Assembly: GCA_014534345.1 (NCBI GenBank)
Contig: JACVRR010000002.1
Location: 1 to 48,966, forward strand
Direction of reading: 5' to 3'
Source of the DNA: Thermoleophilia bacterium
GTDB lineage: Bacteria; Actinomycetota; Thermoleophilia; Gaiellales; Gaiellaceae
DNA: 48,966 nt
Below are positions 16,898-32,932 of this stretch, in pieces (position 1 is the stretch's first letter; each line of letters begins with the position of its first letter). A model generated the notes under the pieces. That model was not told where the DNA came from. It worked only from the letters and a program-made list of their open reading frames with translations, and ran no database searches. Both the position numbers and the translations under genes were made by a program.

Positions 16898-16981
16898 GCC
16901 GGGGTGGCGAAATCGGCATACGCGCCCGACTTAAAATCGGGTGTCCGCGAGGACGTGAGGGTTCGATTCCCTCCCCCGGCA
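16898..16981 (+). tRNA. tRNA-Leu (UAA)
   Basis: 84 nt beginning GCCGGGGTGGCGAAATCGG and ending CCCCCGGCA, CCA not encoded. The anticodon stem-loop CCCGA-CTTAAAA-TCGGG gives anticodon UAA. A long class II variable arm (TGTCCGCGAGGACG) follows, and the T-arm is GAGGG-TTCGATT-CCCTC. Its 3' part is the integration site of the following element. The tRNA stays complete because the element carries the same sequence. Confidence 0.97.
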
Positions 16982-16983
16982 TC
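16928..16983 (+). repeat. attL core (tRNA-Leu 3' end)
   Basis: Left copy of the 56-bp repeat, starting GACTTAAAATCGGGTG in the anticodon loop and ending two bases past the tRNA. It differs from the right copy only at 16968 (T here, C at 32917). Flanking bases differ outside the repeat. Confidence 0.95.
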
Positions 16984-17499
16984 TACCCGAAGTAGCCGGA
17001 AACGGGCCGGTTCAAGCGACCGGCTCGTTTTCTGTCTAGGCGCCGAAACGCGCAGGGGGCAACACGGGGGGCAACTGGCGGGCTGAGGTCGGCGCGCGTG
17101 AGCCTCCGCGTCCTGGTCGCCGCCGTCATCCTCGCGGCCTCGCTTGCCGGAGCCGTGCGGCTGTGGGGCTAGGCGACACGATTGCGCCTTCACCCAGCGA
17201 GCGGTCGGTGTGGTCGTTCTACTCCGACCGCGACAAGGAGCCAGAGTGGGCGGATCCCGCAGCAGTCGGACTAGCCGTCTCGGCATCGGAGTGGCCGGCG
17301 CCGATCCTTGCTCCGATGGCCGCGCGGCGCGCTTAGGGGACGGACGGTCATGCGGCCATGTTCAAGAAGAGGGGCGAGAGGGGGTCGACCCGAACGACAC
17401 GCCGGCTGGCCGCTTCCTCTCGGACTCCCGCCCCACCGCGAACGGTAGGGCGAATCGCCGGTTAGCGGTAGTGGCCGTTACGGACGCGTACCTGACGTC
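16984..17499. other. left end of the element, no supported gene
   Basis: About 515 nt between attL and the coiled-coil gene stop. It holds a tandem GGGGGCAAC motif at 17055-17075. A 24-codon hydrophobic ORF (GTG 17098 to TAG 17172) could be a membrane peptide but has no support. The sequence is less GC-biased than the host genes. Integrase and Xis binding sites would be expected here. Confidence 0.5.
17055..17075. repeat. tandem GGGGGCAAC motif, candidate integrase arm site (left)
   Basis: Two copies of GGGGGCAAC start 12 bp apart, about 70 bp inside attL. The same motif occurs as an 11-bp-spaced pair near attR (32738, 32749) and in reverse orientation inside the element (25515, 25526; single at 23451). 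Spacing near one helical turn and placement at both ends fit arm-type integrase sites. Chance in GC-rich DNA cannot be excluded. Confidence 0.4.
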
Positions 17500-20491
<2,992 letters not shown>

Positions 20492-25347: not shown

Positions 25348-25620
25348 TCAGTTCTGGCGCGGGTCCCCTCCGCCCGCGGGCGCCCGGACGTCGCGCGTGG
25401 GGGAGGGGGTCCGGCGGGAGGGTTCATGCCGCGCGGGGGTGTCGGTGCCGGCGGAGGGGTCGATGTTCGGGGTTGCACGGGTAGGCGACGGTGTCCGCGG
25501 CGCCCGCCCGGCCGGTTGCCCACCTGTTGCCCCCCGCCGCGCAAACCCGCCTCCCTCCACGGCTTCCGTAGGCGGTGCCGGATTTGAAATCAGGTAGCCG
25601 GCGACAGGATCAGACGGCAT
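25348..25620 (-). CDS. possible proline-rich disordered protein, 90 aa
   Basis: ATG 25620 follows a good CTGGAGGGTGTG ribosome site. The product begins PSDPVAGYLISNPAPPTEAV and then becomes proline/arginine/threonine-rich (SPTRATPNIDPSAGTD, SRRTPSPTRD), so it is disordered. The ribosome site argues for translation and the composition argues against. It would be the last gene after the six-gene operon, separated from it by 355 nt. The track's 239-aa version starts too far upstream. Confidence 0.35.
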   Translation of the reverse strand: MPSDPVAGYLISNPAPPTEAVEGGGFARRGATGGQPAGRAPRTPSPTRATPNIDPSAGTDTPARHEPSRRTPSPTRDVRAPAGGGDPRQN

Positions 25621-28060: not shown

Positions 28061-28377
28061 GGCTCGCGGGTCACGATCTCGGGCAAGCGGCTCTCGCGGC
28101 CGATCTGCTCCCGCTCGTAGTCCTGGATCTGCTGGCCGAGACGTCCGACGTCATCAGCCTGCAAGCTCACCCGCTGGCCGAGATGCTCGAACCACTTCTC
28201 GGCGAGGAAGTTCGAGGCGAGCTGGTGGACGAGCCAGCCGTTCGGCTCGACCTCTGCGCGCAGGTCGTCGAGCGCGAGCGCGTCCACCTTGCGGCGCAGC
28301 TCCCGCTCCTTGCGCTCCATCTCGCGGCGCGCGACTTCGGCGAGCCGCAACTCCTCCTGGGCGTGCTTCGTGTTCAT
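28057..28377 (-). CDS. coiled-coil hypothetical protein, 106 aa
   Basis: ATG 28377 overlaps the stop of the first operon gene by 4 nt (ATGA). The N-terminal 45 residues are a charged coiled coil (AQEELRLAEVARREMERKERELRRK). NGWLVHQLASNFLAEKWFEHLGQRV and a Gln-rich helix follow. No known domain. It may bind the acidic operon proteins or DNA. Confidence 0.65.
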   Translation of the reverse strand: MNTKHAQEELRLAEVARREMERKERELRRKVDALALDDLRAEVEPNGWLVHQLASNFLAEKWFEHLGQRVSLQADDVGRLGQQIQDYEREQIGRESRLPEIVTREP

Positions 28378-28592
28378 CGCTTCCCCTCGGCCGCGTACGC
28401 GGCCTCGATCTGTTCGGCGACCCGCGGCCGGCGCCGCAGGTTGCGGTTGACGTGGTCGTGGATCGCGAGCCGGATCTCCGCATTCGTGCTGCGCTCGTTG
28501 CGCGCGGCGACCGTTGCGATCGCGCGCCGCAGTTCAGGCGTCAGTTTCAGGTGTAGCCGTTGCGAGAGAGCGGCGGTTTTCCGGGGCATCAT
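28374..28592 (-). CDS. Arc/ribbon-helix-helix-like DNA-binding protein, 72 aa
   Basis: The first gene of the operon. MPRKTAALSQRLHLKLTPELRRAIATVAARNERSTNAEIRLAIHDHVNRNL shows the basic start, a short strand (QRLHLKLTPEL) and two helices of the ribbon-helix-helix fold. The turn RNERSTNAEIRLAI matches Arc/MetJ-type RSxNxEI. These proteins bind short operator repeats as dimers. Direct repeats lie 67-106 nt upstream of its start (28659-28698) and an iteron-like array lies further upstream. I infer it represses its own operon and possibly the replication genes. Confidence 0.75.
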   Translation of the reverse strand: MMPRKTAALSQRLHLKLTPELRRAIATVAARNERSTNAEIRLAIHDHVNRNLRRRPRVAEQIEAAYAAEGKR

Positions 28593-28658
28593 GCATCCGA
28601 GGTTAGCAGGGCCATCGGACGGACTGGTGGTGCATCATGGGTGCCTTCTTGCTTCCGG

Positions 28659-28698
28659 AGATACGGGGACGCATTTCGAAGATACGGGTACGTACTTC
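28659..28698. repeat. two 19-bp direct repeats, candidate operator
   Basis: AGATACGGGGACGCATTTC (28659-28677) and AGATACGGGTACGTACTTC (28680-28698) match at 16 of 19 positions and start exactly 21 bp, two helical turns, apart. They are 67-106 nt upstream of the ribbon-helix-helix gene. A regulator binding both sites on one DNA face is likely. Confidence 0.6.
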
Positions 28699-29010
28699 CA
28701 CGCAACGGGGATTTGGACCCGATCGAACACTCGCCGCTCGACGACGAGGAACGGCGAGCGGGCGGGCAGCCAGGCAGGTCCGCAAGCAGTGGCCCGAGTC
28801 GACGATGGGATCTCAGCAAGCGAGCGAGAAGGCCGCGGAAGTGTGGCCCGCAGACAGTCCACGATCGGCTCCGAGCAAGCAGGCGAGCGGCAGGCAAGGG
28901 GCGCGGGGCCGCGAGGCGCCCCGCGCTCAGGAAGTCAAGAACGCGGCCTGTCTCCGGTGTCGAGCGGAGCGCGCCTCGCGCGCGCAGCGTTGACCCGGCT
29001 CGCTGGTACA

Positions 29011-29117
29011 GGACACCCGACAACACACAGAGGACACCCGACAACCAACCACAAACGTGGAGGACACCCGAACGCCTAACGGGTGTCCTCTTGTCGGGTG
29101 TCCCCTATCGGGTGTCC
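29011..29117. repeat. iteron-like array of GGACACCCGA, three direct and three inverted copies
   Basis: Copies of GGACACCCGA start at 29011, 29032 and 29062. Inverted copies (TCGGGTGTCC) are at 29079 (one mismatch), 29094 and 29108. Copies 3 and 4 form a dyad: GAGGACACCCG, a short centre, CGGGTGTCCTC. A comparatively A-rich stretch (CAACCAACCACAAACG) lies between copies 2 and 3. The arrangement of iterons with a central dyad and inverted flank is typical of Rep/initiator or repressor binding at an origin. Confidence 0.75.
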
Positions 29118-29378
29118 CCGTTGGATCATGCTCTGGATCGGTGGCTGGATTTCCTGCCGGTTCTGCCCGCGATCTTGGCGCGAGTCCGTCATCAACCCGT
29201 GCTACGGTTGGCTCGTCTCGTCGCGTTCGTCGCCACGGGCCAACCGCTGCACCGAGCCGCCTGCGGGCGGCTCGCGTGCGTCTGAGGATCGTGGTCATGG
29301 CGGCCGACCGGTGGTGGTCATGTCGGCCGACGCCCCGGCTAGGGTCTCGCTCATGCGGCTGGCCACGACGCACGCGGC

Positions 29379-29978
29379 ATGGCTCCTCGCACGCTGATCT
29401 CGGTCGACGCCGAGGGGCGGCTGGTGGACGTCCCCTGCCCCGAGGGCTGGCAGCCGAGCGGGCCGACGATCAGCGCGGCCGACTTCGCCATCCCCGAGGG
29501 CTGGCAGGCTGCCCAGCTGACCTCCAGCCAGGGCGCGGGGACGCCTCCCGCACATCTTCCTAACACGCCGTCGCCCGTCGAGCAGCTCCCCGACGATCAG
29601 CGGCCGGCTGACTACTGGGTGAGCCTGGAGCGCGGCTTCGTCGAACACGCGCTCGAACGCGCGGCGTACCTCCGCGACGAAGCCGACGTCGTCGAGTGGT
29701 ACAACGACCTCCTCGGACTTCCCGCCGATCAGGCGCGCGTCCATGCCCGCGCGCTCCGCACGGAGGCGCGGATGTGGGCAGAGGCCGCTCGCCCGCGTCT
29801 CCCGACCACGGTCGGCCTCGGACTCCGCGTCAGCGGCATCGCACCTGTCCGGCGGCTCACGCGCGGCCGGCGGCTTCGGCCCGTCGCTCGCCGGGTCGCC
29901 CGGCGGCCGTCTCGCGGCTCGCCGTCGCGCGGCGACCCCTCACCATCAGAACCTGACCTAGCCCGGAGGGCGGCGTGA
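29379..29978 (+). CDS. hypothetical protein upstream of primase-polymerase, 199 aa
   Basis: ATG 29379. The first 50 residues carry a repeated phrase, CPEGWQPSGPTISAADF and IPEGWQAAQL. A helical middle (DYWVSLERGFVEHALERAAYLRDEADVVEWYNDLL and DQARVHARALRTEARMWAEA) follows. The tail after residue 145 is arginine/serine/proline-rich and disordered, suited to nucleic acid binding. The stop overlaps the primase-polymerase GTG by 4 nt. It may be a replication accessory or initiator binding the iterons just upstream. No family recognised. Confidence 0.65.
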   Translation: MAPRTLISVDAEGRLVDVPCPEGWQPSGPTISAADFAIPEGWQAAQLTSSQGAGTPPAHLPNTPSPVEQLPDDQRPADYWVSLERGFVEHALERAAYLRDEADVVEWYNDLLGLPADQARVHARALRTEARMWAEAARPRLPTTVGLGLRVSGIAPVRRLTRGRRLRPVARRVARRPSRGSPSRGDPSPSEPDLARRAA

Positions 29979-31231
29979 CCGTCGCCGCCCTGTCCTCTCT
30001 CGGCGAGGCTGCGCTCGACGGCGCGCGCGAGGGGCTGCGCGTCCTCGCGCTCGGCGACCTCAGCAAGAAGCCGAGGGCGGAGAGCGGCGGCGTCAACGAC
30101 TCCACGACGGACGAGCAGACGATCCGCGACTGGTGGTCGCGGTCGCCCGACGCGAACGTCGCGATTGCGACGGGCCGCTACGGGGACCGCTGGCTGGTCG
30201 GGATCGACCTCGATGGCGACGAGGGTTTCCACTCGCTTGCCTCGCTCGCGACGGTTGCCGGCATCGGCCGAGAGGAGGTTCGCCGCGCGCTCGCGACCCG
30301 ACGCGTACGGACGCCGCGAGGTGGCGCTCACCTCTACTACTGGTCGGGCGCCGAGATCCGCAACTCGCAGCGCAAGATCGCGCCAGGGATCGACGTCCGC
30401 GGGGTCGGCGGTTACCTCGTCGCACCGCCGAGTCGGCTGCCCGACGGCGAGTACCTCTGGAGCGGGACCAAGGAGATCGCCGAGCTGCCGAAGTGGCTGC
30501 TGGACGCGCTCCTCACGGCCAACGTCCCGGCGCCCATCCGCCGGGACCTCGCGGCGGTACTCCCGCCGGTGGGACGGGCGGACGGCGTCCTGTCGAAGGA
30601 GGAGCTGATCGCCTTCGACCGCGACGAGGCGTGTCTGCGCAGCCTGGTCGGCGTCTGCAACGGCTGCTACGGCGCGTCGCTCTCGCTCGACGGCCCCTTC
30701 GCGGCCCTGCACCGCCCGTCGAACGACCTCTCGGCGGAATTCTGGAAGGACGAGGGCGGCTTCTGGGTCTACCGCGATCGCTCGCCGCGGGCGCTGTTCC
30801 CGAAGCTCGCGCTGCCGCAGTTGTTCGCCGCCGTCGTCGCCGGCAAGTTCGACCGCGACCGGCCTCCGAAGGGCGGCGCCCTCGTCGAGTGGCGCTACCG
30901 CCTGCTCGTGGAGACGGGCTACCGGACCACGCGTCCGGTCGAGCTTCCGCCGACGCCAGACCTGAGCGAGCTGGAGCGGGAGGTGCTGGAGGGCTTCGCC
31001 TACCTGCTCGCGGTCAAGCAGAACCTCAACGACCCGCAGTCCTTCACGGCGCGGAACGCCGCCGAGTGGATCGGCAAGGGCGCGGCCTGGAGGCGGGTCA
31101 GCACCGCGCTCCACTCGCTGACGAAGAAGGGCTACCTCCGGGTCGCCGAGCAGCGGTCGACGCCGTTCAAAAAGCCGAACGGTGAGCCGATCCTCACGCC
31201 GTTCTACGTGCTGCCGGCGGGGTGGGCGTGA
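29975..31231 (+). CDS. bifunctional primase-polymerase (PrimPol, AEP superfamily)
   Basis: 418 aa from GTG 29975. The N-terminal domain has DWWSRSPDANVAIATG (52-67) and LVGIDLDGDEG with metal-binding Asp78 and Asp80. TPRGGAHLYY (113-122) and APGIDVRGVGGYLVAPPS, with the third Asp about 140, complete the set. These are the full catalytic motifs of the plasmid/phage-type primase-polymerase domain. The C-terminal part (about 310-418) is helical with a winged-HTH-like end (FTARNAAEWIGKGAAWRRVSTALHSL). There is no helicase domain. Enzymes of this kind prime and copy mobile-element DNA. GTGA overlaps join it to the genes before and after, giving one rightward operon next to the iterons. Confidence 0.9.
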   Translation: MTVAALSSLGEAALDGAREGLRVLALGDLSKKPRAESGGVNDSTTDEQTIRDWWSRSPDANVAIATGRYGDRWLVGIDLDGDEGFHSLASLATVAGIGREEVRRALATRRVRTPRGGAHLYYWSGAEIRNSQRKIAPGIDVRGVGGYLVAPPSRLPDGEYLWSGTKEIAELPKWLLDALLTANVPAPIRRDLAAVLPPVGRADGVLSKEELIAFDRDEACLRSLVGVCNGCYGASLSLDGPFAALHRPSNDLSAEFWKDEGGFWVYRDRSPRALFPKLALPQLFAAVVAGKFDRDRPPKGGALVEWRYRLLVETGYRTTRPVELPPTPDLSELEREVLEGFAYLLAVKQNLNDPQSFTARNAAEWIGKGAAWRRVSTALHSLTKKGYLRVAEQRSTPFKKPNGEPILTPFYVLPAGWA

Positions 31232-31488
31232 GCGAGTTCGCGCTTGTCGTCCCGCCCGAGCTGTACGAGCGGCTCGTGGCCGACGTCACCGCGCGCATCG
31301 CCGCCGAGCGGGCCGCCGCCGACCGGCCCGAGTTCCTGACCGTTCCGGAGACGGCCGAGCTGCTCCGCTGCTCGCGGCAGCGGGTCGACAACCTGCTTTC
31401 GGCGGGACGGTTGCCCAGGGTGAAGGACGGCGGGCGGACGCTGATCCGGCGGGCCGACCTCGACGCCTACCTTGACAAGGGGTCCTAA
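31228..31488 (+). CDS. excisionase-like helix-turn-helix protein
   Basis: 86 aa from GTG 31228, overlapping the primase-polymerase stop by 4 nt; the track's GTG 31222 is also possible. The N-terminal half is a helix (PPELYERLVADVTARIAAERA). The C-terminal half is the MerR/excisionase HTH: EFLTVPETAELLRCSRQRVDNLLSAGRLPRVKDGGRTLIRRADLDAYL. Such proteins bend DNA at att arms to favour excision or act as small transcription regulators. Location directly before the integrase supports the excision role. Confidence 0.85.
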   Translation: MSEFALVVPPELYERLVADVTARIAAERAAADRPEFLTVPETAELLRCSRQRVDNLLSAGRLPRVKDGGRTLIRRADLDAYLDKGS

Positions 31489-31561
31489 GATGGAGTCGAC
31501 AGACGTAAGCGGGCCGGCGGTGCGCGAACACCCCGGCCCCGGCACGAAAGGAGTGTCTTCC

Positions 31562-32854
31562 GTGCGGAGCGAGACTAGTCGCTCGACGGGTCCGTCGAGC
31601 AGGAAGCTCGAACGGACAGACCATCCGGGGATCTACAAGCGGGGCGGCAGCTACGTCGTCGTCTACCGCGACCCGCAGGGCAGGCAGAAGAAGAAGGCCG
31701 CCCGGACGCTCCGGCAGGCCCTCGACCTGAAGGCGACGCTACGCGCGGACGTCGTGCGGGGCGAGTACCGGGCGGTCAGCCAGACCACCTTCACCGACTA
31801 CGCGAAGGTCTGGATCGACACCTACCGCGGGCGTACCTCGCGCGGGATCAGGGCCAAGACGCTCGCCGACTACCGCCGGCAGCTCGGCCTCGACGTGAAC
31901 GGCGAGCCTCTCGGCGACGGGGCCGTCGCGTTCTTCGGGCGGAAGCGGCTGGCCGAGATCGAGCCGAGCGACGTCAAGCGGTACGCCAAGCAGGTCGCGG
32001 ACAGGGGGGTTAGTCAGAACACCGTGCGGCTTGCACTCGCCCCGGTCAAGGCGTTGCTCGCCGACGCGTTCGAGGAGGGCGTGATTCGGTCCAACCCGGC
32101 GGCGAGGGTGCGAATCGCGCAGCCGGCCCCCCTCGTCGAGGTTGATGACGACGAAGAGCAGCAGGCGAAGGCGTGGACGCGGGAGGAGCTGCGGAAGCTC
32201 CTGGATGAGGTCCCGGCCAACTGGCGGCTGCTGGTCGAGCTGCTCGCCGGCGCTGGCCTTCGCGTCAGCGAGGCGATTCCGCTCCGTTGGAAGGATCTCG
32301 ACCTCGGTAGGCGGCGGGTCAGGGTGCGGCGCTCGATGGTCGACGGCGTGATCGGCAAGCCGAAGACGGAGTACGGTCGTCGCGACGTCCCCCTCTCCCC
32401 CGCCCTCGCCCGCCGGCTGTGGGAGGAGCGGAAGCGGGCCGGCGAGGGGCGGGATGACGCGCTCGTCTTCGCCGACCGGACGGGCAAGGCCGTGGCGTAC
32501 AACGCGCTACGTCGCGCGCTCAAGAAGGCGAGTGAGCGGGCGGGCGTCCCGTGGCTCGGCGTCCATGCACTTCGCCACACCGCCGCCTCGCTCCTGTTCG
32601 CCGAGGGGTGGAACGCGGCCCAGGTGCAGCACTTCCTCGGCCACCACTCGGCCGCCTTCACCCTGGCGACGTACATTCACTTGCTCGACCACGACCTGCC
32701 CGAGCCGCTGGCCGTCGACTCCATCCTCGACCCCGAGGGGGGCAACGCGGGGGCAACGAGAGGGGTTGAGACGGCCGGAGAGACGGCCGGAGACCCGGTC
32801 GAGCAGCAGGACGGCGAAACCCGCTTGGTTCCTCGGATTGCAGCGGAGGCGTGA
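31562..32854 (+). CDS. tyrosine-family site-specific integrase
   Basis: 430 aa from GTG 31562, chosen because AAAGGAG lies 8 nt upstream; ATG 31490 and TTG 31472 are in-frame alternatives. The N-terminal arm-binding domain contains IYKRGGSYVVVYRDPQGRQKKK. The core-binding domain covers about 70-190. The catalytic domain has Arg in GAGLRVSEAIPLRW (about 235), HALRHTAAS (about 335-343), LGHHS, and the nucleophile Tyr in ATYIHLLDHD (about 370). All active residues are present. It recombines the 56-bp tRNA-Leu core. The sequence near its 3' end also forms a tandem GGGGGCAAC motif. The right attachment core starts 22 nt after the stop. Confidence 0.95.
   Translation: MRSETSRSTGPSSRKLERTDHPGIYKRGGSYVVVYRDPQGRQKKKAARTLRQALDLKATLRADVVRGEYRAVSQTTFTDYAKVWIDTYRGRTSRGIRAKTLADYRRQLGLDVNGEPLGDGAVAFFGRKRLAEIEPSDVKRYAKQVADRGVSQNTVRLALAPVKALLADAFEEGVIRSNPAARVRIAQPAPLVEVDDDEEQQAKAWTREELRKLLDEVPANWRLLVELLAGAGLRVSEAIPLRWKDLDLGRRRVRVRRSMVDGVIGKPKTEYGRRDVPLSPALARRLWEERKRAGEGRDDALVFADRTGKAVAYNALRRALKKASERAGVPWLGVHALRHTAASLLFAEGWNAAQVQHFLGHHSAAFTLATYIHLLDHDLPEPLAVDSILDPEGGNAGATRGVETAGETAGDPVEQQDGETRLVPRIAAEA
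32738..32757. repeat. tandem GGGGGCAAC motif, candidate integrase arm site (right)
   Basis: Two copies, 32738-32746 and 32749-32757, lie inside the integrase 3' coding part, where they encode GGNAGAT. The 11-bp spacing matches the inverted pair at 25515-25534 and is close to the 12-bp left pair at 17055. Confidence 0.4.
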
Positions 32855-32876: not shown

Positions 32877-32932
32877 GACTTAAAATCGGGTGTCCGCGAG
32901 GACGTGAGGGTTCGATCCCCTCCCCCGGCATC
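32877..32932 (+). repeat. attR core (tRNA-Leu 3' copy)
   Basis: Right copy of the 56-bp core, GACTTAAAATCGGGTG to CCCCCGGCATC, with C instead of T at 32917. The 5' half of a tRNA is absent, so it is not a tRNA gene. Chromosomal genes resume beyond it. Confidence 0.95.

Follow-up and report, generated by a model that had tools for sequence, protein, structure and literature searches.

What purpose does a tight cluster of short repeats serve in front of a replication and recombination operon? In the window analyzed here (the whole stretch of 48,966 nucleotides), a 107-bp array at 29011-29117 consists of six copies of the 10-mer GGACACCCGA in the order +++---. The original prediction took this array for the best candidate origin or copy-control operator of the element that carries it. 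It had reported six near-identical 10-mers, a number beyond chance, and an inverted pair with 11-bp arms formed by the third and fourth copies. All three observations hold. Five of the six copies are exact and the sixth matches GGACACCCGA at 9 of 10 positions. The layout is as follows.

29011-29020, 29032-29041 and 29062-29071, + strand: array copies 1-3 of GGACACCCGA
29079-29088, 29094-29103 and 29108-29117, - strand: array copies 4-6 of GGACACCCGA, with one mismatch in copy 4 (GGACACCCGT)
29062-29088: central dyad GGACACCCGA-ACGCCTA-ACGGGTGTCC with a 7-bp spacer, read from the sequence and the alignment

The arms of the inverted pair are GAGGACACCCG (29060-29070) and CGGGTGTCCTC (29080-29090), and this central pair is flanked on either side by two more copies (1 and 2 to the left, 5 and 6 to the right). 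In copies 1, 2 and 5 the repeat is 13 bp long (GGACACCCGACAA). Start-to-start spacing of the copies is irregular (21, 30, 17, 15 and 14). The maximum number of equal 9-mers per 107 bp is six in the real window and never exceeds three when the whole window is dinucleotide-shuffled 200 times. The array strand can fold into nested hairpins (z = -5.9 as DNA and -6.9 as RNA). Its AT fraction is about 0.42, against about 0.25-0.35 across most of the surrounding non-coding gap, so that the array belongs to the stretches with locally lower GC content. No intrinsic terminator was found at the array, and the search for known RNA elements gave only a sub-threshold match located outside it. A dispersed genomic repeat is ruled out. 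The 2.43-Mb genome holds nine exact copies of the 10-mer, five of them in the array, two in the attachment (att) sites described below, and two elsewhere, each of these last standing singly.

The gap that holds the array separates a leftward gene for a ribbon-helix-helix (RHH) protein from a rightward operon that encodes a 199-aa protein, a primase-polymerase (PrimPol), an excisionase-like protein and a tyrosine integrase. The array had been placed about 260 nt before the first two of these genes. We measured 262 bp to the start of the 199-aa gene at 29379, with the PrimPol gene next.

28374-28592, - strand (leftward): RHH protein, 72 aa, weak Pfam and PHROG RHH matches
28593-29378: non-coding control region holding the array, about 786 bp, without an open reading frame of coding composition
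29379-29978, + strand: 199-aa protein, first gene of the operon, no family match, coding composition
29975-31231, + strand: PrimPol, 418 aa, Pfam Prim-Pol (E = 2.1e-34)
31222-31488, + strand: excisionase-like protein, 88 aa, Pfam HTH_17 (E = 1.4e-14) and NCBIfam excise (E = 1.1e-11)
31472-32854, + strand: tyrosine integrase, 460 aa, Pfam Phage_integrase (E = 6.5e-27) and PHROG integrase (E = 1.3e-66)

Integrase residues R264, H365, R368, H391 and Y401 are invariant (alignment A1). Searches of genomes, plasmids, phages and viral contigs for relatives of the PrimPol yielded only distant N-terminal matches and none over the full length. The control region also contains two other repeat pairs. Two 21-bp direct repeats, 81% alike, lie before the RHH gene (28653-28694) and are a possible RHH operator. 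Just before the 199-aa gene, at 29291-29331, are two 18-bp direct repeats, GTGGTCATG(G/T)CGGCCGAC, 23 bp apart.

The operon ends at the right attachment site (attR) of a 15,949-bp (15.95-kb) element in tRNA-Leu(UAA). The bounds of the element follow from a 55-bp repeat that links the 3′ part of the tRNA gene to 32877-32931. The two copies differ by one mismatch in 55 bp (98% identity).

16898-16981, + strand: tRNA-Leu(UAA), the integration target, whose 3′ part belongs to attL
16928-16982, + strand: attL core repeat, 55 bp, with TCGGGTGTCC at 16937-16946
32877-32931, + strand: attR core repeat, 55 bp, 22 bp behind the integrase gene, with TCGGGTGTCC at 32886-32895
32739-32757, + strand: candidate left arm-type sites, two GGGGCAAC 11 bp apart (starts 32739 and 32750), inside the 3′ end of the integrase gene
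17056-17075, + strand: candidate right arm-type sites, two GGGGCAAC 12 bp apart (starts 17056 and 17068)

Within the att repeat lies the anticodon stem-loop, CCCGA-CTTAAAA-TCGGG, with its 7-bp loop. Att sites centered on the anticodon are one recognized class (PMC4383910), and the 7-bp anticodon loop and its palindromic stem match the overlap and the core at which such integrases act (reviewed in PMC8371274). In one sister element with a related integrase (L036) the att copies agree without gaps over a stretch of only 21 bp whose center is the anticodon stem-loop. For this integrase group the crossover is thereby assigned to that stem-loop. On each side of the joined att site is a tandem GGGGCAAC pair, and these pairs are most simply read as the arm-type sites of a lambda-like integrase. 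The layout is shared by L036 and L040, both with GGGGCAAC, and in diverged form by L039 (GGTCAAAC) and L266 (GTGGCAAC). L254, L258 and L273 have partial variants of the paired sites. Arm pairs of the NNGGCAAC type, at similar distances on either side of att, span an integrase family with different tRNA targets. The right end of another tRNA-Leu(UAA) element, also with a GGGGCAAC arm pair, was seen in genome G087 (L107:10263-10698; about 380 bp on the contig).

The array and the att sites share a motif, a link that the original prediction had missed. The right half-site of the att core and the array 10-mer are identical. In both att copies the 10-mer is read as its reverse complement, TCGGGTGTCC, and begins immediately after the anticodon loop (16937 and 32886; offset 9 within the core). 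When the six array copies are aligned with attL and attR, nine columns are invariant (GGACACCCG). The chance of finding the 10-mer in att is about 4e-5 from the genome count and 1.7e-4 under a Markov model, both optimistic figures, the match having been noticed after the fact. The spacing is also equal, with 7 bp between the two copies of the central array pair and a 7-bp overlap in the anticodon loop of att. The letters of the two differ, ACGCCTA in the array spacer and CTTAAAA in the att overlap. The left core half-sites of attP (CCTGGAGGGA) and attB are far less like the array unit than the right half-site is. The tRNA-Leu(UAA) of some relatives reads TCGGGTGTCCCC, in agreement with copies 5 and 6 over 12 bp. 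We considered whether the array, which is 3.8 kb away from att, represents arm-type integrase sites, and this was ruled out, the arm motif being the paired GGGGCAAC. No GGGGCAAC was found near the array; the nearest are at 25526 and 32739. The likely arm-type motif differs from the array unit and thus the array repeats the core motif specifically.

The shared half-site suggests that the integrase, or a protein of the same specificity, also acts inside the element. We favor, with a probability slightly short of even, the reading in which the array serves the element's own tyrosine integrase as an internal site and consists of copies of the att core-type half-site. Each copy has at least GGACACCCG in common with the right half of the att core, where this stretch abuts the 7-bp overlap, and copies 3 and 4 are opposed across a 7-bp spacer, as in a complete core site. 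In content, the array would fit integrase binding at least as well as it would fit Rep iterons. Integrase molecules would occupy the flanking copies as well as the central pair, and the bound integrase may repress or tune the operon for the 199-aa protein, PrimPol, Xis and Int that starts downstream. The array may also resolve multimers formed when the excised circle replicates. It would then recombine with another copy of the array in the multimer and not with att, because its spacer differs from the att overlap.

Several points speak against an internal integrase site, among them the poor likeness of the left att half-sites to the array unit. Lambda-type integrases hold isolated core sites weakly, and this integrase appears to be arm-binding, yet its arm motif is missing from the neighborhood of the array. 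Copies 1, 2 and 5 also have 3 bp (CAA) in common past the att match, so that the recognized unit may differ from the att half-site. A broader proposal is that an att half-site was turned into an internal array before a replication-recombination operon, so that one integrase would sense and couple integration state, operon expression and multimer resolution. We regard this as possible and put it forward tentatively. If the integrase does bind the array, a single recombinase would control all three steps in a small replicating island. Such a link is known from a few transposons, and a limited literature search found none for tRNA-integrating elements.

The nearest known layout is the internal recombination site (irs) of the transposons Tn4430 and Tn5401, at which the tyrosine recombinase TnpI acts (PMC7157771). 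In Tn4430, irs comprises an inverted core pair, IR1-IR2, plus the direct repeats DR1 and DR2, upstream of tnpI (PMC7157771). When TnpI binds in Tn5401, expression of tnpI and tnpA is modulated, and this transposon has a DR2 copy close to each of its ends (PMC7157771). The array likewise combines an inverted core pair, with an overlap-sized spacer (29062-29088), and further motif copies (1, 2, 5 and 6) upstream of a recombinase gene. Unlike irs, it has two extra copies on each side and a 7-bp core spacer. The element also differs from these transposons in its site-specific integration into a tRNA gene and in its integrase, which appears bivalent. No transposase was found among the called element genes scanned, whereas att sites in a tRNA gene are present. 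As far as examined the element is no Tn3-family transposon, and recombinase binding and resolution at the array are putative, so we compare the array with irs and do not file it as one. Integrase autoregulation in a tRNA prophage is established for intS of KplE1, where the control site is attL itself (PMC2951348). Here too, putative integrase sites accompany an integrase-encoding gene, but the array is separate from att. The irs-like layout together with the known autoregulation in KplE1 is the reason that we prefer the internal integrase site.

The element as a whole resembles actinomycete ICEs (AICEs) in its Prim-Pol replication gene, tyrosine integrase, tRNA att site and excisionase-like gene beside int. 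The survey that defines AICEs requires an FtsK/TraB-type transfer gene (PMC3218068), and none was recognized among the called genes of this element. There was likewise no match to an FtsK/SpoIIIE-type Tra protein among the element proteins scanned, several frames at 20.5-25.9 kb being uncertain, and for this reason we do not file the element as an AICE. Its genes include one at 18809-20491 for an N6/N4 DNA methyltransferase with a C-terminal Mrr-like nuclease domain, a possible restriction-modification cargo. Among the sister elements, L036 has a C5 methylase with Vsr and L040 a XamI-like enzyme.

The main rival to the integrase reading is the originally predicted origin or copy-control site. 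It is plausible and could coexist with a role for the integrase; as the explanation of the array we consider it possible, if on the unlikely side. The initiator that binds the 10-mers and opens the origin would be either the 199-aa protein or the PrimPol through its C-terminal part, the inverted half would limit firing, and the att match would be due to chance or secondary. The part of the prediction that stands is a cis-acting control-region feature beside replication genes. The array lies upstream of the PrimPol operon in a non-coding gap. With plasmid iteron origins it has in common a cluster of short repeats beside a replication gene. Its lower GC content relative to most of the gap and its strong nested hairpins also suit an origin, and the four GGTCCGAAC repeats within a gene of L039 are compatible with an origin located elsewhere in this group. 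The content of the array points in another direction, because an origin leaves unexplained why the repeats match the att half-site exactly and keep the register of the 7-bp overlap. Both the motif common to att and the symmetric +++--- order, with its irregular start-to-start spacing, are unlike plasmid iteron origins.

We rate two other explanations as improbable, each to about the same degree. The array may be an operator or partition site of an element regulator, RHH or other, which also sits on the att core and steers recombination and operon expression. The shared motif would then be explained without direct binding by the integrase. Binding to arrays of short repeats is known for RHH proteins such as omega and ParG, and the RHH gene is 420 bp from the array. 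The naming of the RHH protein as the array ligand found no support, however, and the repeat pair at 28653-28694 before the RHH gene would be its more natural operator. The att motif is also present in the tRNA-Leu genes of relatives and is therefore fixed by the tRNA, not by a regulator. Alternatively, the att match may be coincidental, and the array may be either a relic or a structural dyad (a hairpin or cruciform that might, e.g., give the PrimPol a single-stranded site for initiation). The nested three-fold dyad is in keeping with this, as are the reliance on a single element and the noticing of the match after the fact. Coincidence is disfavored by the low odds of an att match, about 4e-5 to 2e-4 without correction for choice.

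Relatives of the integrase were gathered with its sequence and its profile. Among nine delimited sister elements with related integrases we found no convincing cluster of an element's own att half-site, the maximum being one or two per 150 bp, compared to six att-core 10-mer copies, five of them exact, in the window element. An att-derived array is thus not a general feature of these integrases. L272 has four inexact matches to its own att 10-mer, but that 10-mer is GC-only and the att borders are uncertain. In L042, L123 and L137, 9-mers are common to the region behind int and to three-copy clusters, which we took as chance. The PrimPol of the window element is in none of the nine sister elements or other loci checked. 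Searches with the array dyad, allowing three mismatches or fewer in 129 genomes of the order and one or fewer in 399 genomes of the class, gave no comparable array, nor did a search with the array direct pair in 397 genomes of the phylum or a search of viral contigs. With a single element known to carry the array, conservation speaks neither for nor against either reading. In L039, the four direct GGTCCGAAC repeats (L039:11345-11501) lie in a gene for a 233-aa protein without a family match and are a candidate in-gene iteron array. The L039 element measures 8.2 kb, sits in tRNA-Lys, falls within the same integrase group and carries a phage capsid gene (L039:7858-9030), which suggests a phage satellite.
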